Part shown: one piece after another, positions 12,621-33,575 of the stretch
Layout: the number at the start of each line of letters is the position of its first letter
How positions within the stretch are numbered: position 1 is the stretch's first letter
Source of the DNA: Actinomycetota bacterium
GTDB taxonomy: Bacteria; Actinomycetota; Acidimicrobiia; Acidimicrobiales; JAJPHE01
DNA: 42,320 bases
NCBI GenBank assembly: GCA_027315345.1
Contig: DAHUYE010000010.1
Location: 1 to 42,320 of the forward strand
Reading direction: 5' to 3'
The notes under the pieces: model-generated
Database searches by the model: none
The model's input: only the letters and a program-made list of their open reading frames with translations
What the model was told of the DNA's origin: nothing
Program-made: the position numbers and the translations under genes

Positions 12621-14491
12621 GGCGTGGCGGCTCCGACTATCGGGGCCGCCAGGGTGATCTCGCTGCCGGCCGGGGAACCGTCGATCACGGCGGTCCCGTA
12701 GCCGTAGACGATCCCGACCGAATCGGCCAGGTAGTAGCCGCCCCCTCCGGGGGCGTCGGCGAAGGCATGTATCGAACGGTCCTCGGAACTGGCCGCCGAG
12801 CCGTAGAAGTGGGCGTCCCCGTAGGTGAAGATCCCGCCGTCGGCGGCGGCCAGGGTGTAGCCCCCACCGTCGGGGGTGGCGGTGATCCCGATGACCGGGG
12901 ACACGATGTGGTCGGCTCCGGCCGATCCGAAGAAGGCGGCGTCCCCGAAGGAGAAGACGCCCCCGTCGGCAGCCGCCAGCCAGTAGCCGCCACCATCGGC
13001 GGTCGAGGCCATGCCCACGATCGGAGCGGCCAGTCGTTCCGCCCCGGTGGAGCCGAAGAAGCGGGCGTCCCCGAAGCTGAAGACTCCGCCGTCGGAGGCG
13101 ACCAGCCAGTACCCCTTACCGTCCGGCGTCACCGCCATGCCCACGATCGGGGCGGCCAGCCGTTCCGCCCCGGTGGAGCCGTAGAAGTTGGCGTCCCCGA
13201 AGCTGAAGACGCCGCCGTCGGAGGCCACCAGCCAGTAGCCCTTACCGTCCACCGTTGAAGCCATGCCGACTACCGGTCTGGCCAGCCGTTCGGCTCCAGT
13301 GGACCCGTAGTAGCCGGCGTTCCCGTAGCTGAAGACGCCGCCGTCGGAGGCGACCAGCCAGTAGCCGACGCTGCTCGAACTGGGAACCTGGTTGACCAGG
13401 GAGAAAGAGGCCGGCGGGTTGAGGTTCGGAACCGAGGCGGAAACCAGATAGCCGCCCGGATCCGAGTTGGCCGTGAAAGTCGGGGCCACGGCCACGCCGT
13501 TGCTGTCGGTCGTGACGGTGACGGTCGTGCTGCTACCGGCGAAGGTGCCGCCGGCCCCACTGGCCGGCGCCGTGAAGGTGACGGCCACACCCGGGTCCGG
13601 GTTCTTGTTGGCATCGGTGACGGTCACGGCCAGAGGAACGGAAAAGGCGGTGTTGACCGGCGTTGACTGGGACGCGCCGGACCCGGTGGTGATGTAGGCC
13701 GGCGGTCCGGCCTCATTGGTCAGGCTGAACTGAGCCGAACCATTGAAACCCGTCGTGGTGGCGTTGACCACGAAGGCTCCGGCGGAGTTGTTGGCGTTGA
13801 TGAGGGGGCTGGTGGCCACCCCGGATGAGTTGGTCGGCTCGGTGGCCGAGGATCCCCCACTGGCGAAGGTCCCGCTGGCCCCGGTGGAGCCCGGAGCCAT
13901 GGTGAAGGTGACGCTGGCGTTGACCACCGGGTTTCCGTTTCCATCCATGACCTGAGCCGTCAACGGGGAGCCGTACTGGCCCCCGACCGGGGAAGACTGG
14001 CCACTGCCGCTCGCAGCGGTGATCCCGGCGGCCACACCGGCCACGGTATTGGTCAGGTAGAACGAGCCGGTCTGGGTGCCGGCGTTGCCAGCCGTAGCCG
14101 TCGCATTGACGTAGTACGAACCCGCCGTGCTGTCGGCGGTGAAGGTCCCGGCGGTGGCCACCCCAGACGAGTTGGTCCCCACCGTGATGGTGTAGGTGCC
14201 CGAGGAGCCGAACGTGCCCGAAGCGCCCGAGGACGGTGCGCTGAAGGTGACGCTGGCGTTGGGCACCGGGTCGTCGTTGGAGTCGCACACGGTGACCGAC
14301 AGCGGTGTGGGGAAAGCCGTATTCACCTTGGTCGTCTGAGGAGAGCCTCCCGCAGGCGTGACGCCAGTGGGTCCGCAGTTCCCGGTCGTGGCGGCGGCGG
14401 CGGCGGGTAGGGCGCCACCGGCCAGCAGGCCGGCGCCGGCCGTGACGATGGCGACCATGCCAAGGGCGACACGCATGAGGGAGTTCTTCAC
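12617..14491 (-). CDS. Secreted Ig-like surface protein with six C-terminal GYWL repeats
   Basis: A 624-residue exported protein with a signal peptide of ~32 residues (hydrophobic core, cleavage near AAAAA). Residues ~35-375 form three bacterial Ig-like (Big_1/invasin-type) modules, each with the pattern PL.VTV.D.N..PV..A.VTF.AP.SGA.GTF...... T.SNGVA.AP.FTAN...G.Y.V.A. The last ~245 residues are six repeats of 41-42 residues, best preserved as GYWLVASDGGVFSFGDA..FYGSTGAERLAAPIVGMA. The fifth and sixth are degenerate. No LPXTG or lipobox is seen, so attachment is unknown; adhesion is a guess from the Ig modules. It lies 52 bp after the lipoprotein gene on the same strand and may belong to the export operon. 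Confidence 0.8.
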   Translation of the reverse strand: MKNSLMRVALGMVAIVTAGAGLLAGGALPAAAAATTGNCGPTGVTPAGGSPQTTKVNTAFPTPLSVTVCDSNDDPVPNASVTFSAPSSGASGTFGSSGTYTITVGTNSSGVATAGTFTADSTAGSYYVNATATAGNAGTQTGSFYLTNTVAGVAAGITAASGSGQSSPVGGQYGSPLTAQVMDGNGNPVVNASVTFTMAPGSTGASGTFASGGSSATEPTNSSGVATSPLINANNSAGAFVVNATTTGFNGSAQFSLTNEAGPPAYITTGSGASQSTPVNTAFSVPLAVTVTDANKNPDPGVAVTFTAPASGAGGTFAGSSTTVTVTTDSNGVAVAPTFTANSDPGGYLVSASVPNLNPPASFSLVNQVPSSSSVGYWLVASDGGVFSYGNAGYYGSTGAERLARPVVGMASTVDGKGYWLVASDGGVFSFGDANFYGSTGAERLAAPIVGMAVTPDGKGYWLVASDGGVFSFGDARFFGSTGAERLAAPIVGMASTADGGGYWLAAADGGVFSFGDAAFFGSAGADHIVSPVIGITATPDGGGYTLAAADGGIFTYGDAHFYGSAASSEDRSIHAFADAPGGGGYYLADSVGIVYGYGTAVIDGSPAGSEITLAAPIVGAATP

Positions 14492-23215: not shown

Positions 23216-24505
23216 GTGAGGCTCGCCTACGTCGTCCCCCGCTACGGGCCGGAAGTGGTGGGCGGCGCCGAGACGGCGGCCCGGAACCTGGCCGAGCGGC
23301 TGGTGGCGGCCCGGGGCTGGGAGGTGGAGGTCCTGACCACCTGCGCGGCGGACGCCATGACCTGGGCCAATGAGTACGCACCGGGCGAGGTGGAGATCAA
23401 CGGGGTGCGGGTCCACCGGTTCCGGTCCGAGGCGGGCCGGGACCCCGAGTTCCACCCGTACTCGGGGGCTCTGCTGGCGGCCGGCCCGGCCAACGCCTCG
23501 ACGGAGGAGGCCGAGCGCTGGATCGACCTCCAGGGCCCGGTCTGCTCCCAGCTCATCGGCGCCATCCGGGACAGCCCCGCCGACCTGGTCGTCTTCTATC
23601 CCTACCTGTACCACCCGACCGTGAGGGGCCTGCCTCTCGTGGCCGACCGCTCCGTCTTCCATCCCGCCACCCATGACGAGCCGCCCCTGCGCCTGCCCGT
23701 GTTCGGGCCCGTCTTCGGGGCCGCCTCGGCCCTGGTGTTCCAGACCTACGGGGAGCGCCGCCTGGCCCACCGTCTCTTCCCGGTGGCGGCCACCCCCCAG
23801 ATCGTCCTGGGCCTGGGCGTGGACGAGGAGGTGGGCTCCCCTGAGGGCCTGCCGGCTGAGCCCGGCGGGCCGGGAGCCGGGGCGCCGGCGGGCGACGGGG
23901 CGGCGCTCTCGGCGGGGGCGTCGGTCCGGGCCCGGTTCGGGCTGGGGGAGCGGCCGTTCCTGGTCTCGGTGGCCCGGTACCTCGACGATCACAAGGGCAC
24001 CGACCTGTTATGGAGCTACTTCCGGGAGTACAAGTCCCGCCGGCCCGGCCCGCTGGCCCTGGTCCTGGTGGGCCAGGTGGTCAAGGAACCCGAGCCGGAT
24101 CCCGATGTCATCAGTGCCGGGATGGCCGATGACCGGACCAAGTGGGCCCTGCTGCGGGAGTCGGCCGCCCTGGTGTCGGCCTCGGCCTTCGAGGCCTTCT
24201 CCCTGGCGGTGGTGGAGGGTTGGACGGCGGGCAGCGCCGTGATCGTGAACGGGCGCTGCGAGGCCACCCTGGAACATGCCCAGCGCTCGGGCGGGGGCCT
24301 GTGGTACGAGGACTATGCGAGCTTCGAGGCCGCCCTGGACCGCCTCCTCCACGAGCCCGGCCTCCGGGACGAGCTGGTGTCCCGGGGCGGGCGCTACGTG
24401 GATGAAAACTTCCGCTGGGAGCGGATCATCGAGAGGTACGGGGACTTCCTGGAGAAGGTGCACCTTCGCCGGGGACAGGGGCCCGCCCAAGGGCCCGGGG
24501 TGTAG
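23216..24505 (+). CDS. GT4-family glycosyltransferase
   Basis: A 429-residue GT-B enzyme transferring a sugar from a nucleotide donor. The acceptor domain opens with LAYVVPRYGPEVVGGAETAARNLAERL, the typical GGAE start of family GT4. The donor domain begins near FLVSVARYLDDHKGTDLL and has the E-x7-E motif in SAFEAFSLAVVEGW followed by GSAVIVNGRC. A poorly conserved Gly/Ala/Pro insertion at residues ~205-235 separates the domains. No glycan-synthesis cluster is alongside, so the acceptor is unknown. The GTG at 23216 has only a weak CACAAT hexamer 6 nt upstream. A permease gene follows after 33 bp. Confidence 0.88.
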   Translation: MRLAYVVPRYGPEVVGGAETAARNLAERLVAARGWEVEVLTTCAADAMTWANEYAPGEVEINGVRVHRFRSEAGRDPEFHPYSGALLAAGPANASTEEAERWIDLQGPVCSQLIGAIRDSPADLVVFYPYLYHPTVRGLPLVADRSVFHPATHDEPPLRLPVFGPVFGAASALVFQTYGERRLAHRLFPVAATPQIVLGLGVDEEVGSPEGLPAEPGGPGAGAPAGDGAALSAGASVRARFGLGERPFLVSVARYLDDHKGTDLLWSYFREYKSRRPGPLALVLVGQVVKEPEPDPDVISAGMADDRTKWALLRESAALVSASAFEAFSLAVVEGWTAGSAVIVNGRCEATLEHAQRSGGGLWYEDYASFEAALDRLLHEPGLRDELVSRGGRYVDENFRWERIIERYGDFLEKVHLRRGQGPAQGPGV

Positions 24506-24538: not shown

Positions 24539-26974
24539 ATGATGACCGACCCGGCCCAGGAGATCCCCGAGTCCCTCGGCTACCGCCTCAAACGCGTCCT
24601 CCTCGGGCCCCCGTTGGTCACCGAGAACCTCCGTAACGAGCGACTGACCAACACCGTGGCCCTGGGTGTGCTCAGCCCGGACTGCATCTCCTCCTCGGCC
24701 TACGGCAGCGAGCTGATGCTGCGGGAGATGGTGCCGATCATCGGGCTGGCCGCCTTCTCCCTTCTGATCCCGGTGACGGTGGCCATCCTCATCGTCCTGT
24801 TCCTGGTCACGCTCTCCTACCGGGAGGTCGTGATGGTCTACACCAAGGCCGGCGGCTCCTACGTGGTGGCCCGGGACAACTTCGGCAGCAACATCGCCCA
24901 GATCGCGGCGGTGGCCCTGCTCATCGACTACACGGTCACCGTGGCCGTCCAGACGGCGGCCGGCACCGATGCTCTCACCTCGGCGGTGCCGTCCCTCACC
25001 CCCTACACGGTGCCCATCACGGTGGGGGTGGTGATCATCCTCCTGTACGGGAACCTGCGCGGCATCCGGGAGGCGGGCAAGGCCTTCGCCCTGCCCACCT
25101 ACTTCTTCATCGGCACCATGCTGGTGGTCATAGCCGTGGGCTTCTGGAAGGCGGCCACCGGGCGGCTGGCCCAGTTGAGCGTCCATCACGCCGGGCTGGT
25201 GCAACTGGGCCGTCCCGGCAGCGGGCTGTTGATGGGCCTCGGCGTCTTCTACCTGCTCAGGGCCTTCGCCAACGGCGGTTCTTCCCTGACCGGTCTGGAG
25301 GCCATTTCCAATGGTGTGTCGGCCTTCAAGCCGCCGGAGGGCACCAACGCCCGCCGGACGCTGGTGGCCATGAGCATGACCCTGGGCACCCTCGTGCTGG
25401 GTGTCTCCCTGCTGGCCCGCTTCACCCATGCCCTTCCCTATGTGATCGGCACGCCCACGGTCATCTCCCAGGAAGCCAAGGTCGTCTTCGGGTCCCACGG
25501 CTTCGGAGCGGTGCTGTACTTCGTCGTTCAGCTTTCGACCCTGCTGATCCTCTACACCGGGGCCAACACCAGTTTCAACGGGTTCCCGTTCCTGGCCAGC
25601 TTCGTGGCCGAGGACTCCTTCCTGCCCCGACAGCTGATGCGCCGGGGCCACCGCCTGGCCTTCTCCAACGGCATCGTCGTCCTGGCCGTGGTGTCCATCG
25701 CCCTGCTCATCGCCAGTGGGGCCCAGGTCAATTCGCTGGTGGCCATCTACGCCATCGGAGTGTTCACCGGCTTCACCATGGCCGGAGCCGGGATGGTCAA
25801 ACATCACCTGACCAACCGGGAGCGCGGCTTCCGCCGGAAACTGGCCATCAACGGCAGTGCGGCGGTGCTGTCCGGCCTGGTGGTGTTGATCTTCGCCATC
25901 ACCAAGTTCACCGAGGGGGCCTGGGCCGTGGTCGTGCTCTTCCCCGTCATGTGGTACGGGCTCATCCGGCTCAACCGGCAGTACCGCCTGGAGGCGGCCG
26001 TGCTGGGCGAAGGAGTGGCGGCCCGGGCCGCCGAGGCCCGCATCCTGCGCGACCACGTGGTCATGGTCCTGGTTGATCGCCTGGACCTGGCCACGGCCCG
26101 GGCCATCCAGTACGCCCGCAGCCTCAACCCCACAGAGGTGCGGGCCATCCACTTCTCCCTCGACACCGCTCGGGCCGATCTGCTGGCCGAACGCTGGGGG
26201 CGCCTCGGGCTGCGGGCCATCTCCCTGGAGCTGATCGAGTGCCCCGACCGCCGGCTGGCCCGGGCGGCGGTGGAGACGGTGGCCGAGGCCGCCGCCGGAG
26301 GCCAGACCGAGGTCAGCGTCCTGCTGCCCCGCCGGGCCTACAGTCGGGTGTGGAGTCGCTTCCTCCACGACCAGACCGCCGACCGCATCGTCCTGGCCCT
26401 GGGCCGGCTCGACAACGTCACCGCCACCATCGTCCCCTTCGACGTCGGCCGGGAGCTGGCCCGCATCAGCGGGGAACGCAGCGCCGGCGGCCTGGGCCGG
26501 CTCAGCCGGGCCGCCCGGGAAGGACTTCCCTCCCTGGAGGGTCGCGACGGGGGCGTCAGCGACGAGGAGCGTCGGGCCCAGGAGCGCGAGGCGTGGGAGA
26601 AGCTGGTGGGCGAACGCCGCCCCGGGGAGCGGCCCGGCCCGCGCCCGCCCGAACGCCAGGTGGACGAGGTGCTGGCCGCCTTGCAGATCCCCGGCCTGAC
26701 GGCCATAGGCGACATCCAGGAGCGATTGCCGGCCAAGGTGGCCGGCCGGGTGCGCTCGGTCAAGGTGCAGCCGTGGGCCGGCGCCCCCAGCCTGGAGTGC
26801 GTCCTGGCCGACTCCACCGGCCGTCTGACGGTCACTTTCATGGGCCGCCGCCAGGTCCCCGGCATCGAGCCCGGCTCCCGGCTGGTGGCCGAGGGCGTGG
26901 TCATCAACCGCCGGGGCCAGCCCACCATCCTCAACCCGATCTACCGGATCATCGCCCCCACCGAAGAGGACTGA
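24539..26974 (+). CDS. APC-superfamily permease fused to a cytosolic region with an OB-fold domain
   Basis: An 811-residue protein. Residues ~35-480 form an APC-type amino-acid/cation permease of about 12 helices (VALGVLSPDCISSSAYGSELML, TKAGGSYVVARDNFG, GNLRGIREAGKAFALPTY). Residues ~500-640 are a soluble nucleotide-binding/USP-like region (HVVMVLVDRLDLATARAIQYARSL), followed by a charged linker. The last ~110 residues (from about 695) read as an OB-fold with IQERLPAKVAGRVRSV, LECVLADSTGRLTVTFMGRR and GIEPGSRLVAEG. In mycobacteria a similar permease and a stand-alone OB-fold protein are separate genes of one neighbourhood (Rv2690c to Rv2694c), so this looks like a gene fusion. The -10 TACGCT lies 9 nt before the ATG. 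The substrate is unknown. Confidence 0.85.
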   Translation: MMTDPAQEIPESLGYRLKRVLLGPPLVTENLRNERLTNTVALGVLSPDCISSSAYGSELMLREMVPIIGLAAFSLLIPVTVAILIVLFLVTLSYREVVMVYTKAGGSYVVARDNFGSNIAQIAAVALLIDYTVTVAVQTAAGTDALTSAVPSLTPYTVPITVGVVIILLYGNLRGIREAGKAFALPTYFFIGTMLVVIAVGFWKAATGRLAQLSVHHAGLVQLGRPGSGLLMGLGVFYLLRAFANGGSSLTGLEAISNGVSAFKPPEGTNARRTLVAMSMTLGTLVLGVSLLARFTHALPYVIGTPTVISQEAKVVFGSHGFGAVLYFVVQLSTLLILYTGANTSFNGFPFLASFVAEDSFLPRQLMRRGHRLAFSNGIVVLAVVSIALLIASGAQVNSLVAIYAIGVFTGFTMAGAGMVKHHLTNRERGFRRKLAINGSAAVLSGLVVLIFAITKFTEGAWAVVVLFPVMWYGLIRLNRQYRLEAAVLGEGVAARAAEARILRDHVVMVLVDRLDLATARAIQYARSLNPTEVRAIHFSLDTARADLLAERWGRLGLRAISLELIECPDRRLARAAVETVAEAAAGGQTEVSVLLPRRAYSRVWSRFLHDQTADRIVLALGRLDNVTATIVPFDVGRELARISGERSAGGLGRLSRAAREGLPSLEGRDGGVSDEERRAQEREAWEKLVGERRPGERPGPRPPERQVDEVLAALQIPGLTAIGDIQERLPAKVAGRVRSVKVQPWAGAPSLECVLADSTGRLTVTFMGRRQVPGIEPGSRLVAEGVVINRRGQPTILNPIYRIIAPTEED

Positions 26975-26976
26975 CC

Positions 26977-27732
26977 GTGATCGCTCTGGTGACCGGGGCC
27001 AGCGCCGGCTTCGGGGCCGCCATCACCCGGGTCCTGGCCGATGACGGGATGAAGGTGGTGGCCACCGCCCGCCGGGCTGACCGATTGTCGGCGCTGGCCA
27101 CCGATCTGGGGCCGGCCGTGCTGGCCCTGGAGTTGGACGTGACCGATGCCGCCGCGGTCGGACGGCTGGCCGGGTCGTTGCCAGAAGGGTGGGCCGAGGT
27201 CGACGTGCTGGTCAACAACGCCGGCCTGGCCCTGGGCCTGGAGCCGGCGGCCGAGGCCGACCTGGGCGACTGGGAGCAGATGATCCAGACCAACTGCGCC
27301 GGGCTGGCTCGGGTCACCCGGGCCCTGTTGCCCGGGATGGTCCGGCGGGGTAGAGGCCATGTCGTGAACATCGGCTCCACGGCCGGGACCTATCCGTATC
27401 CGGGCGGGAACGTCTACGGGGCCACCAAGGCTTTCGTCCACCAGTTCAGCCTGAACCTGCGGGCCGACCTGGCCGGCACCGGGGTGCGGGTGACCTGCAT
27501 CGAGCCGGGCATGGCCGGGGGATCGGAGTTCTCCCAGGTCCGCTTCCACGGGGACGAGGACAAGGCGGCCGCCGTCTACGCCGGCACCGACCCCCTCACC
27601 TCGGAGGACGTGGCCGAGGCGGTGCGGTGGGTCGTGTCGCGCCCGGCCCACGTCAACATCAACGTGGTGGAGATGATGCCGACGGCCCAGAGCCCGGGAC
27701 CGCTGGCGGTGCACCGCCGCCTCGGGCCGTGA
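26977..27732 (+). CDS. YdfG-like NADP-dependent 3-hydroxy acid dehydrogenase (SDR)
   Basis: A 251-residue classical short-chain dehydrogenase. The cofactor motif is TGASAGFG (residues 6-13), an Arg pair after the second strand (ATARRADRL) indicates NADP(H), the NNAG motif is at 80-83, and the catalytic Ser134, Tyr147 and Lys151 lie in NIGSTAG and YGATK. The C-terminus HVNINVVEMMPTAQSPGPLAVHRR is nearly diagnostic of YdfG-type enzymes, which oxidise serine and 3-hydroxy acids or reduce malonic semialdehyde. The GTG at 26977 lies 2 bp after the permease stop. The open frame extends much further upstream, but only as a shadow of the permease. Its stop overlaps the next gene's GTG. Confidence 0.92.
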   Translation: MIALVTGASAGFGAAITRVLADDGMKVVATARRADRLSALATDLGPAVLALELDVTDAAAVGRLAGSLPEGWAEVDVLVNNAGLALGLEPAAEADLGDWEQMIQTNCAGLARVTRALLPGMVRRGRGHVVNIGSTAGTYPYPGGNVYGATKAFVHQFSLNLRADLAGTGVRVTCIEPGMAGGSEFSQVRFHGDEDKAAAVYAGTDPLTSEDVAEAVRWVVSRPAHVNINVVEMMPTAQSPGPLAVHRRLGP

Positions 27733-29201
27733 GCACGGCGGCCCGTCCGGCCGGCGGGACCGCCGCCGACCGCTACGACGTGGTCATCCTCGGCGCCGGG
27801 TCGGGGGGTGAACGCCTGGCCGGACTGCTGGCCGAGGCGGGCCGGTCGGTGGCCGTCATCGAGGAGGCCCGGGTGGGTGGCGAGTGCCCTTACGTGGCCT
27901 GCATGCCCAGCAAGGCAATGCTGCGCGGCGCCCACCTGCGTGCCGACCTGGCCAACCACGGTCTCCGGGTGGGCGCCGTGGGCGCCGCCCATGACGGCGG
28001 CTCGGACGCCCGGGCCTGGGCGGCGGCGGTGGCCTGGCGGGACCAGGTGGCCGAGAACCGGGACGACTCCTCGGCCGCCGCTTCCCTGGTCGAGGCCGGC
28101 ATCACCCTGGTGCGAGGCCACGGCCGGGTGGAAGGACCGGGCCGGGTCAAGGTCGGCTCCCGCATGCTGAGCGCCGATCACCTCGTCCTGGCCACCGGCA
28201 GCGAGGCGGTCATCCCTCCGATCGAGGGCCTGGCCGACTCGGACTTCTGGACCAGCGAGACCGCCCTCAGCTCCGCCGAGCTGCCCGAGTCCCTGGTCGT
28301 GCTGGGGGGCGGGCCCATCGGCTGTGAACTGGCCCAGCTCTACGCCCGCTACGGCGCCCGGGTGACCTTGGTCGAGTCATCGGATCGGCTGGTGGCCAAG
28401 GAGGAGCCGGCCGTGTCCGGGGCCCTGGCCGGCGCCCTGGCCGCCGATGGGGTCGAACTGCGTCTGGGCCACCAGGCCCGTTCCGTGAAGGCTTGGGGAG
28501 AGGGCCATCAAGTGTCGCTCGACCGCGGTCCGGCCGTACGGGGCGCCCGGGTGCTGGTGGCGACAGGCATGAGGCCCCGCACGGCCGGCATCGGCCTGGA
28601 CACCCTCGGTCTGGTCGACGGGGAGCCATTGGAGACCGACGACCGGTGCCGGGTCGGCGGCCGGTCCGACCTCTGGGCGGTGGGTGACGTGACCGGGGTG
28701 GCCCCGTATACCCATACGGCCAACTACCAGGCCAAGGTGGTGGCGGCCAACATTGCCGGGGCCGGGGCCGGGGCCGGGGCCGGGGCCGGGGCCGGGGCCG
28801 GGGCCGGGGCCGGGGCCGGGGCGGCCGCCGACTACCGGGCCATCCCCCGCTGCGTGTTCACCGACCCGCCCCTGGCCTCGGTGGGCCTGTCCGCCCAGGC
28901 GGCCCGGGCCGCCGGCGTCCGGATCCGGGTCGAGACCATGGACGTGGGGGAGACGGCCCGAGCTTCGAGCGAGGGACGGCGGACCGGCGTGCTCGTCCTG
29001 GTGGCCGATGCCGACCGGGGCGTGCTGGTCGGGGCGTCGGCCATCGGGCCCTCGGCGGACGAGTGGATCGGGGAGGCGGTGGTGGCCATCCGGGCCGAGG
29101 TCCCCCTCTCGGTCCTGTCCGACGTGGTCCATCCCTTCCCCACCTTCAGCGAGGCCTACGAGCCTGCCTTGGCTCGCCTGGCGTCAAGTCGGTCCGGCTG
29201 A
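27729..29201 (+). CDS. FAD-dependent pyridine nucleotide-disulfide oxidoreductase
   Basis: A 490-residue flavoprotein of the dihydrolipoamide dehydrogenase / mercuric reductase group. The FAD loop is VVILGAGSGGERLA, and the redox disulfide is Cys53-x4-Cys58 in GGECPYVACMPSKAML. The NAD(P) loop is VVLGGGPIGCELA, the second FAD motif DLWAVGDVTG, and the dimerisation domain ends in HPFPTFSEAYEP with the His-Glu pair that supplies the partner active-site base. No lipoamide-complex genes are near, so the substrate is open (mycothione reductase, soluble transhydrogenase or a lipoamide enzyme). Residues 343-364 are eleven Ala-Gly repeats encoded by a hexanucleotide array between the FAD and dimerisation domains. 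It starts with GTG overlapping the YdfG-like stop. Confidence 0.92.
   Translation: MSTAARPAGGTAADRYDVVILGAGSGGERLAGLLAEAGRSVAVIEEARVGGECPYVACMPSKAMLRGAHLRADLANHGLRVGAVGAAHDGGSDARAWAAAVAWRDQVAENRDDSSAAASLVEAGITLVRGHGRVEGPGRVKVGSRMLSADHLVLATGSEAVIPPIEGLADSDFWTSETALSSAELPESLVVLGGGPIGCELAQLYARYGARVTLVESSDRLVAKEEPAVSGALAGALAADGVELRLGHQARSVKAWGEGHQVSLDRGPAVRGARVLVATGMRPRTAGIGLDTLGLVDGEPLETDDRCRVGGRSDLWAVGDVTGVAPYTHTANYQAKVVAANIAGAGAGAGAGAGAGAGAGAGAGAAADYRAIPRCVFTDPPLASVGLSAQAARAAGVRIRVETMDVGETARASSEGRRTGVLVLVADADRGVLVGASAIGPSADEWIGEAVVAIRAEVPLSVLSDVVHPFPTFSEAYEPALARLASSRSG
28755..28820 (+). repeat. Hexanucleotide array (GCCGGG)11 inside a coding region
   Basis: Eleven exact copies of GCCGGG (equivalently GGGGCC in phase) encode (Ala-Gly)11 in the oxidoreductase. 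The unit is two codons, so copy-number changes by slippage would alter linker length without shifting the frame. Tracts of GGGGCC type can form G-quadruplexes on the + strand. Confidence 0.95.
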
Positions 29202-31255: not shown

Positions 31256-33319
31256 TCATGCGTCGGGGGCTGCCCCGATGACCGGGGCCTGGAGCGGACG
31301 GCCACCCATCGACCCTAAGTAGCCGGCGTCCCCGAAGCTGAACACGCCGCCCTGTTCGCTGAACTCCCAGTAGCCGCCGCCGTCGGGGGTGGCGGCTATT
31401 CCGACTATCGCCGCCTTCAGCGCCCGGCCACCCATCGACCCGTGGAAGGCGGCGTCCCCGAAGCTGAACACGCCGCCGTCGGACGCGATGAGCCAGTAGC
31501 CACCCCCGTCGGGGGTGGCGGCCATCCCGACTATCGGCGCGGCCGGATGTCCGCCAACCATCGACCCGTGGAAGGCGGCGTCACCGAAGCTGAACACGCC
31601 GCCGTCGGACGCGATGAGCCAGTAGCCCCAGCCGTGCGGCGCCGAAACGATCCCGACCATCGGCGCGGCCAGAGGCTTGCCCCCCATCGACCCGAAGAAG
31701 GTGGCGTCACCGAAGTTGAAGACCTGGCCGTCGGAGGCGACCAGCCAGTAACCGCCGCCGTCGGGGGTGGCGGCCATCCCGACTATCGGCGCGGTCGGAG
31801 GCTTGTCACCCAACGACCCGAAGAAACGGGCGTCCCCGAAGCTGAACACCCCGCCGTCGGAAGCCACCAACCAGTAACCGCCGCCGTCGGGGGTGGCGGC
31901 CATCCCGACCATCGGGGCGTTGAGCGCCCGGCCGGCCATCGATCCGTAGAAGCCGGACGATCCGAAGGAGAAGACGCCGCCGCTCGACGCCGTCTCCCAG
32001 TAGCCCTGGGGAATGGGGAGAGGCGCCAGAGAGTTGCCGGCCGCTACCGATGAGCAGCCGTTCTGGAACGGCGCGCCGGCGAAGCGCTGCTGGAGGAACG
32101 CCATGGCGGCCGGCTCGAAATGGACGGCGGCCTGGGTGTGGTCGGAGCCCTGATAGACCGACAGCTGCAGCGGGACCCCCTGCTGGCAGTACTGGTGGGC
32201 GAGGCCTTCGACGTCGGCGGTGACCATGATGCCGTCGCCGGTACCGTCGGAGTCACCGACTCCCATGAACAACGGTCCAACCGGATGGCCGGGGACGCTG
32301 CCCATTATGAGGTCATCGACGATCTTGGCGAAGACGGGGACGGCTAGGAAGTTCTGATACTGAGGTTTGAGCAGCTTCTGGACGGTCAGGCCGGGTACCC
32401 CGCTCAGCGAGCCGATGCAGGCATGGGCGTCCTGGGTCGTGAGCTGCACCCCATACGGTGAGAGGTAGGGGGTCAGGTCGACGCCATAGGCCAGCGACAA
32501 CGCCACCAGCACGGCCGGGATGATGCTCGACCAGCTGCTGGTGGCTCCGTTGATGTAGGCGAGGTTGTGGGCGTAGTCGACGGGGATGCCACCTTCGGCC
32601 ACCCCGACGATGTCGAGCTGGGGGGCGTAACGCGGGGCGACCTCGCTGGCCCACTCCGCCGCTATCGATCCACCCGAGTACCCGGTGAGTCCGGCCTTGG
32701 TGGAGGCCGGAAGCCTGAGGTAGGACTCAGTGGCCCGGATGGCGTCGAGGGAGGCGTATCCGGCCAGGTATCCGGCGGTCCACTCGAGGTTGGGTCCTTC
32801 GAAGTCGGGGACGGTGACGATGAAGTTGTTGGCCAGGTAGCCGGCGATGATCGCCTCCTCCGCCTGGGCCTGCTGCTCATTGCCGGCGCCGGGGTTGCCG
32901 CCCTGCAGCGTGTAGCTCGGGTCGCACTGGGCGCCGAGGGCGTCATAGAAGCTGAGGTAGCCGACCAGGTCGGGGACGGTGGTGCCGCCGGCGTTCATCA
33001 GCACGGTGGTGACCGTGGCGATGGGCTGGCCGAGCTCACCGGTGGTGCGGTAGAGCAGCTGTTCGGCGGTGACCGGGGTGGCGGTGGCGCCCAGAGCCAC
33101 CTGCACCGACCGTTGCTTGAGCACCGTGCCCGGGGCGATGTCGGCCAGCGGGGTCGACCCGGAGTAGCCGTAGAAGGGATCCTGATTTGGAGGGAGCGGG
33201 GTGGAGACTGCGGCCGCCTGGGTGCTGCCGGACGCCGAGGCGACCCCCACCGATCCGGTCAGTACCAGCACCATGGCGACGCCGAGTTGGATCGCCTTCC
33301 GCGGTGCCCACAGTGTCAT
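31256..33319 (-). CDS. Secreted LIP-family lipase with six C-terminal GYWL repeats
   Basis: A 687-residue exported protein. The signal peptide (MTLWAPRKAIQLGVAMVLVL, then a cut near ASAS) is followed by an alpha/beta-hydrolase of the secretory lipase (LIP) family. It shows PFYGYSG, ATPVTAEQLLYRTTGELGQPIATVTTVL, the nucleophile elbow GYSGGS, and a later His in SDHTQAAVHF. It should hydrolyse triglycerides or other esters outside the cell. The final ~250 residues are six ~41-residue repeats of the type GYWLIASDGGVFSFGDAAFHGSMGGRALKA, the same module as in the proteins at 7465 and 12617. The ATG at 33319 is chosen for its strong AAGGAGA site at 5 nt and because the signal peptide begins there; the open frame extends to 33508. 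Confidence 0.88.
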   Translation of the reverse strand: MTLWAPRKAIQLGVAMVLVLTGSVGVASASGSTQAAAVSTPLPPNQDPFYGYSGSTPLADIAPGTVLKQRSVQVALGATATPVTAEQLLYRTTGELGQPIATVTTVLMNAGGTTVPDLVGYLSFYDALGAQCDPSYTLQGGNPGAGNEQQAQAEEAIIAGYLANNFIVTVPDFEGPNLEWTAGYLAGYASLDAIRATESYLRLPASTKAGLTGYSGGSIAAEWASEVAPRYAPQLDIVGVAEGGIPVDYAHNLAYINGATSSWSSIIPAVLVALSLAYGVDLTPYLSPYGVQLTTQDAHACIGSLSGVPGLTVQKLLKPQYQNFLAVPVFAKIVDDLIMGSVPGHPVGPLFMGVGDSDGTGDGIMVTADVEGLAHQYCQQGVPLQLSVYQGSDHTQAAVHFEPAAMAFLQQRFAGAPFQNGCSSVAAGNSLAPLPIPQGYWETASSGGVFSFGSSGFYGSMAGRALNAPMVGMAATPDGGGYWLVASDGGVFSFGDARFFGSLGDKPPTAPIVGMAATPDGGGYWLVASDGQVFNFGDATFFGSMGGKPLAAPMVGIVSAPHGWGYWLIASDGGVFSFGDAAFHGSMVGGHPAAPIVGMAATPDGGGYWLIASDGGVFSFGDAAFHGSMGGRALKAAIVGIAATPDGGGYWEFSEQGGVFSFGDAGYLGSMGGRPLQAPVIGAAPDA

Positions 33320-33575
33320 GACTCTCCTTCGCCAGGTTCCGCCCGGTTCGGACCCGCCACCGCAAGCCCTGGGTGCGAGCCCCGGGGCGGCCGGGTTCCT
33401 TCGGAGGCTACCGGGGCTTGGCCCGCAAGACCTCAGGCGTGCGGGACACGACGAAACGGAATCCTGTGACCCGCCTGGGATTCCGACGTCCGCAAGAAGC
33501 GGATTCATCCCTCCGACCCGGCGGAGGCCTTAACCTCCGCCGTCAGGGGGATCTCCGACAGAACGGACGGGAGTC
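33320..33575. promoter_or_regulatory. Divergent structured intergenic region upstream of lipase and CBM48 genes
   Basis: This 256-bp gap carries several pairings, for example GGAATCC (33458-33464) with GGATTCC (33478-33484). On the reverse strand, the ~100 nt before the lipase ribosome site contain GGGGCTCGCACCCAGGG and, later, CCGAACC, loosely recalling the 3' half of the ydaO-type c-di-AMP riboswitch. The conserved CUCGUAGGC element is not there, so I do not call a riboswitch. Confidence 0.3.

Follow-up and report, generated by a model that had tools for sequence, protein, structure and literature searches.

A KimA-Type Potassium Importer Homologue Fused to an OB-Fold Domain in Actinomycetota

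Introduction

The closest described relative of the protein analysed here is KimA of Bacillus subtilis, a KUP family member (6s3k, 8b70, 8b71) that combines a 12-helix K+/H+ symporter with a cytosolic alpha/beta domain. Residues D36, Y43, T121, T230, E233 and Y377 of KimA have been shown or proposed to take part in K+ binding or proton coupling (PMC6994465, PMC10284832), E233 being the proton-coupling residue and the other five forming the K+ site, and its cytosolic domain binds c-di-AMP, which traps the transporter (PMC10284832). In Streptomyces, the KimA-like proteins Vnz_27465 and Vnz_15480 share 39–42% identity with B. subtilis KimA; the available excerpts of the source describe them as 12-helix proteins without an OB fusion or OB role, and the locus number of the former adjoins that of Vnz_27460, an RCK_C protein (PMC10117811). 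For the same genus, a synteny study mentions an OB protein encoded next to trkA and kdpDE (PMC13118837).

Potassium transporters with cytosolic nucleotide-binding regulators are also represented by TrkAH, KtrAB and KhtTU/CpeAB, which resemble the system considered here in that respect and differ from it in their pore, which here is a KimA-type permease. None of these three systems is known to include an OB domain. In Mycobacterium tuberculosis, a similar set of parts is presumably encoded by separate genes of one cluster, comprising a permease (Rv2690c), TrkA genes, DUF3159 and an OB-fold protein (Rv2694c). The last is called a "conserved protein" in the excerpt available of one source (PMC6333855) and carries the name of an unrelated transport ATPase in that of another (PMC6528289). 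The available portions of four papers on M. tuberculosis K+ uptake (PMC6375644, PMC12136442, PMC13163235, PMC8358298) name no CeoBC membrane subunit, two of them presenting the Trk system as two TrkA proteins. KimA, TrkA and the OB family are thus each already known; the literature searched contained no account of a fusion between KimA and OB, or of OB as part of a KimA system. Here, such a fusion is reported from a stretch of 42,320 nucleotides of an Acidimicrobiia genome, referred to below as the window.

Results

The KimA-OB fusion gene occupies 24539..26974 on the forward strand, as do all of its features given below, and consists of a single open frame of 811 codons plus stop, running from ATG to TGA without internal stops. 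A search of the window's own genome found one copy, which is open. Its neighbours lie on the same strand, a glycosyltransferase gene ending at 24505 upstream and a short-chain dehydrogenase gene downstream, and a promoter and terminator scan gave no signal above chance. The kimA gene of B. subtilis is preceded by a c-di-AMP riboswitch. A search for such an element was negative both for the window and for seven related loci that carry the fusion; structured RNA families were likewise absent from the window and from beside the fused gene at those seven loci, the only RNAs being tRNAs several kb away. Elsewhere in the window, a 6-bp tandem repeat (GCCGGG, 11.3 copies, 100% match) at 28755-28822 encodes a (Gly-Ala)n stretch of possibly variable length inside a flavoprotein disulphide-reductase-like open reading frame (27627-29201). 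A related 126-bp unit forms two separate arrays at 12927-13366 (3.5 copies) and 31299-31990 (5.5 copies), the latter encoding, in a lipase-like protein (31256-33508, minus strand), C-terminal repeats of the GGGYWLVASDGGVFSFGDA type.

By homology, the permease part is a KimA-subfamily (KUP) K+/H+ symporter. Its 12-helix transmembrane domain, of the LeuT fold, covers residues ~38–489 (24650..26005), as placed by PF13520, 6s3k, Foldseek and the helices of the predicted structure. An amino-acid permease reading was rejected, as it draws only on the Pfam match to AA_permease_2 (PF13520, residues 52–454, E 2e-24), whereas the closest match is KimA and the K+ site is intact. B. subtilis KimA was the only strong solved relative (6s3k, residues 15–630, phmmer E 2e-109), with 39% identity over 586 residues, and Foldseek with the predicted structure returned 8b70, 8b71 and 6s3k as its top three matches (TM-score by target 0.80–0.87), 8b70 and 8b71 being the best of them at 0.82–0.87. 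The six KimA residues implicated in K+ binding or proton coupling align with D48, Y55, T134, T251, E254 and Y404, and none of these six varied among 101 fused homologues. The stretch of the K+ site from D48 to Y55 (KimA D36 and Y43) is located at 24680..24703 by alignment with homologues, and D130, T134, T251, E254 and Y404 follow downstream; in the same region, Y131 was found in 101 of 101 homologues and D130 in 93. It is this match to KimA, together with the six identical residues, that identifies a K+/H+ symporter rather than a generic APC permease. The transporter of about 12 helices proposed in the initial annotation was therefore upheld, its APC label being narrowed to a KimA-type K+ importer.

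The soluble region that follows, initially described as nucleotide-binding-like, was identified more precisely as the cytosolic alpha/beta domain of KimA (residues ~505–635, 26051..26443) by KimA alignment, the model and Foldseek; in B. subtilis this domain is the one that binds c-di-AMP (PMC10284832). Among the equivalents of the c-di-AMP site, H610 (KimA H579) was kept in 100 of 101 homologues and R364 in the TM8-9 loop (KimA R337) in 86 of 101, and T613 stands where KimA has S582. The pocket is partly unlike that of B. subtilis, however: the position of P479 is occupied by L here and by L or F among homologues, N580 is replaced by D, and Q581, kept here, is R in most homologues. As P479, N580 and usually Q581 are changed, c-di-AMP binding is not assured. 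A diadenylate cyclase (DAC) domain is encoded in the window's genome, which is thus probably able to synthesise c-di-AMP, and control of the KimA-OB protein by this nucleotide is plausible by analogy with B. subtilis KimA.

KimA of B. subtilis terminates around residue 607, without an OB domain, whereas the chain encoded here continues through a flexible linker (residues ~650–719, 26486..26695) into a C-terminal OB-fold domain (residues ~720–806, 26696..26956), the former placed by low pLDDT and a variable gap and the latter by PF01336, the RecG wedge, the model and a fold search. AlphaFold2 modelled the whole chain with a mean pLDDT of 89 and a pTM of 0.84. Across most of residues 651–710 the pLDDT was 42–63, and the gap between the permease and OB matches ranged from 4 to 108 residues (median 35, 77 homologues). 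Strands of the OB domain were predicted at 731–746, 749–757, 762–768, 781–791, 794–798 and 801–806 (pLDDT about 87–96), with a five-stranded barrel over 731–806 in which pLDDT was mostly above 90. The isolated domain was predicted equally well as in the full chain, and its fold search gave a best Z of 12.5 (3dm3) and a Z of 10.5 for RecG (1gm5); the matches listed included RPA, RecG and aminoacyl-tRNA synthetase OBs and were mostly nucleic-acid-binding OBs. The earlier assignment of residues 695–811 to an OB barrel was borne out by this prediction and search, except that the domain, first put at about 110 residues, has a well-folded part of about 90 (720–806), residues 650–715 being flexible linker.

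By sequence, the nearest relatives of the OB domain are the RecG wedge (PF17191) and PF01336. The OB region matched PF01336 at E 1e-5 to 2e-4 (21.5–26.1 bits, below the curated cut-off of 27), and at E ≤ 0.01 this profile was found in 101 of 111 family members and the RecG wedge in 15 of 111. The OB fold and the weak similarity in sequence are shared with the RecG wedge, but the domain described here comes without a helicase and is marked by a GRRxIxGI loop and an NPxY end of its own, and RecG of the same genome is a distant paralogue (28 bits versus 123 bits for the OB domain of KimA-OB). R729, G736, D758, F767 and G775 were present in 101 of 101 sequences; R729, G736, D758, G769, R770, G775, N799 and P800 are near-invariant, with R729, D758, G769, R770, N799 and P800 conserved in both fused and separate OB forms. 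The core of the OB domain is basic, the 58 sequences grouped as fused averaging a net charge of +4.4 and a pI of 10.2. Ubiquitin matches obtained with OB in a PDB profile search were discarded as an artefact of summing nine weak repeats.

The fused KimA-OB gene is genuine. A fused frame was found in 36 of the first 55 loci and in 79 of the best 80 loci of a named-genome scan, about 115 loci in total from many assemblies, including the isolates Pseudonocardia acidicola K10HN5, Kitasatospora sp. MAA4 and Streptomyces sp. ICBB 8177. The permease-OB fusion first suggested by the single 811-codon frame is thereby confirmed as recurrent, with homologues that do not end near residue 650. Acidimicrobiia and other actinomycete bins make up most of the hosts, and bogs, palsas or soils are the source of many. 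About three changes of the fused state were required on a tree of 162 permeases, versus at least 38 with shuffled labels, and the window's protein fell within a fully fused clade of 88–89 members. In ten other loci, a separate OB gene lies directly 3' of KimA, and in several cases, including L044, L046, L049 and L052, the stop and start codons of the two genes overlap as GTGA (-4 nt). As such fission variants occur inside the same tree, the fusion is one of the forms taken by a conserved pair of genes.

Further variants of this pair were observed. In one family, a separate OB gene lies about 40 bp directly upstream of KimA (>OB >KimA in L209, L221 and L225; minus strand in L210 and L222), which constitutes a third arrangement. 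One genome (G284) carries a fused KimA-OB gene with a diverged OB as well as a separate KimA-TrkA-TrkA-OB set elsewhere (L232 3555-6677, minus strand; L233 3274-6931), and in a congener (G333) several frames make up what is left of the permease of the fused type. The names of hosts of fused proteins (L093-L172) often suggest acidic surroundings (bog, palsa, Pseudonocardia acidicola), in agreement with K+ uptake at low pH, a tendency to which source bias may contribute.

The genes accompanying the OB domain, taken from simple ORF calls, were compared between loci. KimA was present in 54 of the 56 loci at which OB has a gene of its own, TrkA in 52 and both in 50, and a divergent TrkA gene lay upstream of the fused gene in 58 of 79 fused loci. 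The proposed link of this OB family to membrane transport is thus supported by the company of KimA at separate loci as well as by the fusion. Across 246 genomes of the phylum, KimA occurred in 83 of 84 OB-positive versus 20 of 162 OB-negative genomes (Fisher p 7e-45, a value that ignores kinship among genomes), the sole OB-positive genome without KimA (G283) carrying its OB gene, together with TrkA, on a contig of 3 kb. A close TrkA, defined by a best E of 3e-54 or lower, a cut that also tracks kinship, was found in 83 of 84 OB-positive versus about 10 of 162 OB-negative genomes, and in 6 of the 20 that were KimA-positive and OB-negative. The OB-positive exception (G035), which has a fused KimA-OB gene, gave no TrkA match at E 1e-10, and TrkA is therefore not always needed. 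Some KimA proteins of the phylum, in open frames of 607–616 residues, lack OB.

Gene order at two loci, DUF3710-OB-DUF3159-TrkA-TrkA-KimA (L190) and <KimA >TrkA >TrkA <DUF3159 <OB (L192), showed that the neighbourhood described for mycobacteria in the initial annotation, with a permease, a TrkA pair, DUF3159 and OB, does exist in Actinomycetota. A like order of KimA, TrkA, TrkA and OB was seen at two more (L188, L229). Compared by locus names alone, the order and strands of Rv2690c-CeoB (Rv2691)-CeoC (Rv2692)-Rv2693c-Rv2694c in M. tuberculosis fit L192, while the genes there are separate and the OB is unfused. The otherwise unexplained OB family tied to K+ uptake probably takes in the M. tuberculosis member. 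At the fused loci of several relatives (L095, L112), the gene adjoins, or sits between, a TrkA pair and an H+-pyrophosphatase gene.

The window's protein belongs to a subclade of 12 members (support 0.96), in which TrkA adjoined the fused gene in none of the seven loci with at least 2.5 kb of upstream sequence; in the neighbouring branches, TrkA was adjacent in 4 of 4 and 31 of 39 loci. This lineage seems to have moved away from the TrkA locus and passed between families; in the genome of the window, its gene may have taken the place of the original copy. The TrkA pair of this genome is on a contig (C89) other than that of KimA-OB, where it is accompanied by a DtxR/IdeR-like regulator with a FeoA domain and an H+-pyrophosphatase (L173 6111-10564); this TrkA/H+-pyrophosphatase site is the one at which some relatives carry the KimA-OB gene.

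The assembly of the window's genome is incomplete (106 contigs, estimated completeness 97.7%). No match to TrkH/KtrB (PF02386) was found in it, whereas 11 of 14 control genomes were positive, and KdpA and Kup were likewise undetected. As no other importer was found among the families tested (TrkH, KdpA, Kup), KimA-OB is probably the main K+ uptake route of this genome.

Discussion

As a whole, the most probable explanation, and one held with good confidence, is that the gene encodes a KimA-type K+ importer with an OB domain that elsewhere is a separate protein encoded beside KimA and two TrkA (RCK) genes. By analogy with B. subtilis KimA, K+ would enter with H+ via the KimA-type pore of a domain-swapped dimer whose cytosolic domain may be inhibited by c-di-AMP. 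From its genomic company, the OB would serve as a regulatory or docking domain of the importer, acting together with the cytosolic domain as a tethered regulator of the pore; both the fusion and the neighbouring genes make it likely that its role is K+-regulatory. In the preferred detail, the OB would couple KimA to the TrkA/RCK pair and the fusion would tether this adaptor to the pore; taken alone, this is the least certain step and is put forward tentatively. That the TrkA pair of actinobacteria might have KimA rather than TrkH as its partner in the membrane, with the OB as the missing coupling subunit, is a possibility regarded with some doubt. If true, RCK would gate a three-part K+ importer by way of an OB adaptor, with the fused protein belonging to this importer, and in mycobacteria CeoBC and Rv2694c would be accounted for by the same KimA-OB-TrkA assembly.

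It was also considered that the OB may sense a small ligand directly (ATP, c-di-AMP or ppGpp) and so gate KimA besides the cytosolic domain, with TrkA unneeded. This would suit the basic OB core with its near-invariant R729 and R770, the fused gene of G035 without a detectable TrkA, and the nucleotide regulation already established for B. subtilis KimA (PMC10284832). The strong co-occurrence of OB and TrkA, however, makes such a sensor unlikely, and no known nucleotide-gated OB of this kind was prominent among the fold matches listed. Binding of RNA or DNA, for example as a membrane anchor for a regulatory RNA or for the gene's own transcript, is allowed by the fold class and basic charge, the nearest sequence relatives being the RecG wedge and PF01336 and the fold matches including RPA, RecG and aminoacyl-tRNA synthetase OBs. 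Fold alone gives no function, though, and the steady neighbours of the OB are K+ transport genes rather than nucleic-acid genes, which favours K+ regulation; with structured RNA families also absent from the window and from beside the fused gene in seven loci, nucleic-acid binding is considered rather improbable. A folding, dimer-stabilising or membrane-surface (phospholipid) clamp without any signalling role would not need the strict conservation of R729, D758, G769, R770, N799 and P800 across fused and separate forms, nor the co-occurrence with TrkA, and is improbable even though some KimA proteins of the phylum (607–616 residues) manage without an OB and the linker is long, flexible and variable in length. 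Finally, an assembly or frame artefact merging two genes, conceivable in that some relatives encode OB as an overlapping gene in another frame that one indel might join, was ruled out for all practical purposes by the recurrence of the fusion in about 115 loci across assemblies and isolates and by its few changes of state on the tree (about three versus at least 38).

Under the preferred reading, that of a K+-regulatory OB domain, the working hypothesis is that an OB family annotated as nucleic-acid-binding or hypothetical in actinobacteria belongs to potassium uptake. KimA would then be a likely membrane partner for TrkA pairs where bacteria lack TrkH, and the natural KimA-OB fusion offers a ready-made test construct.
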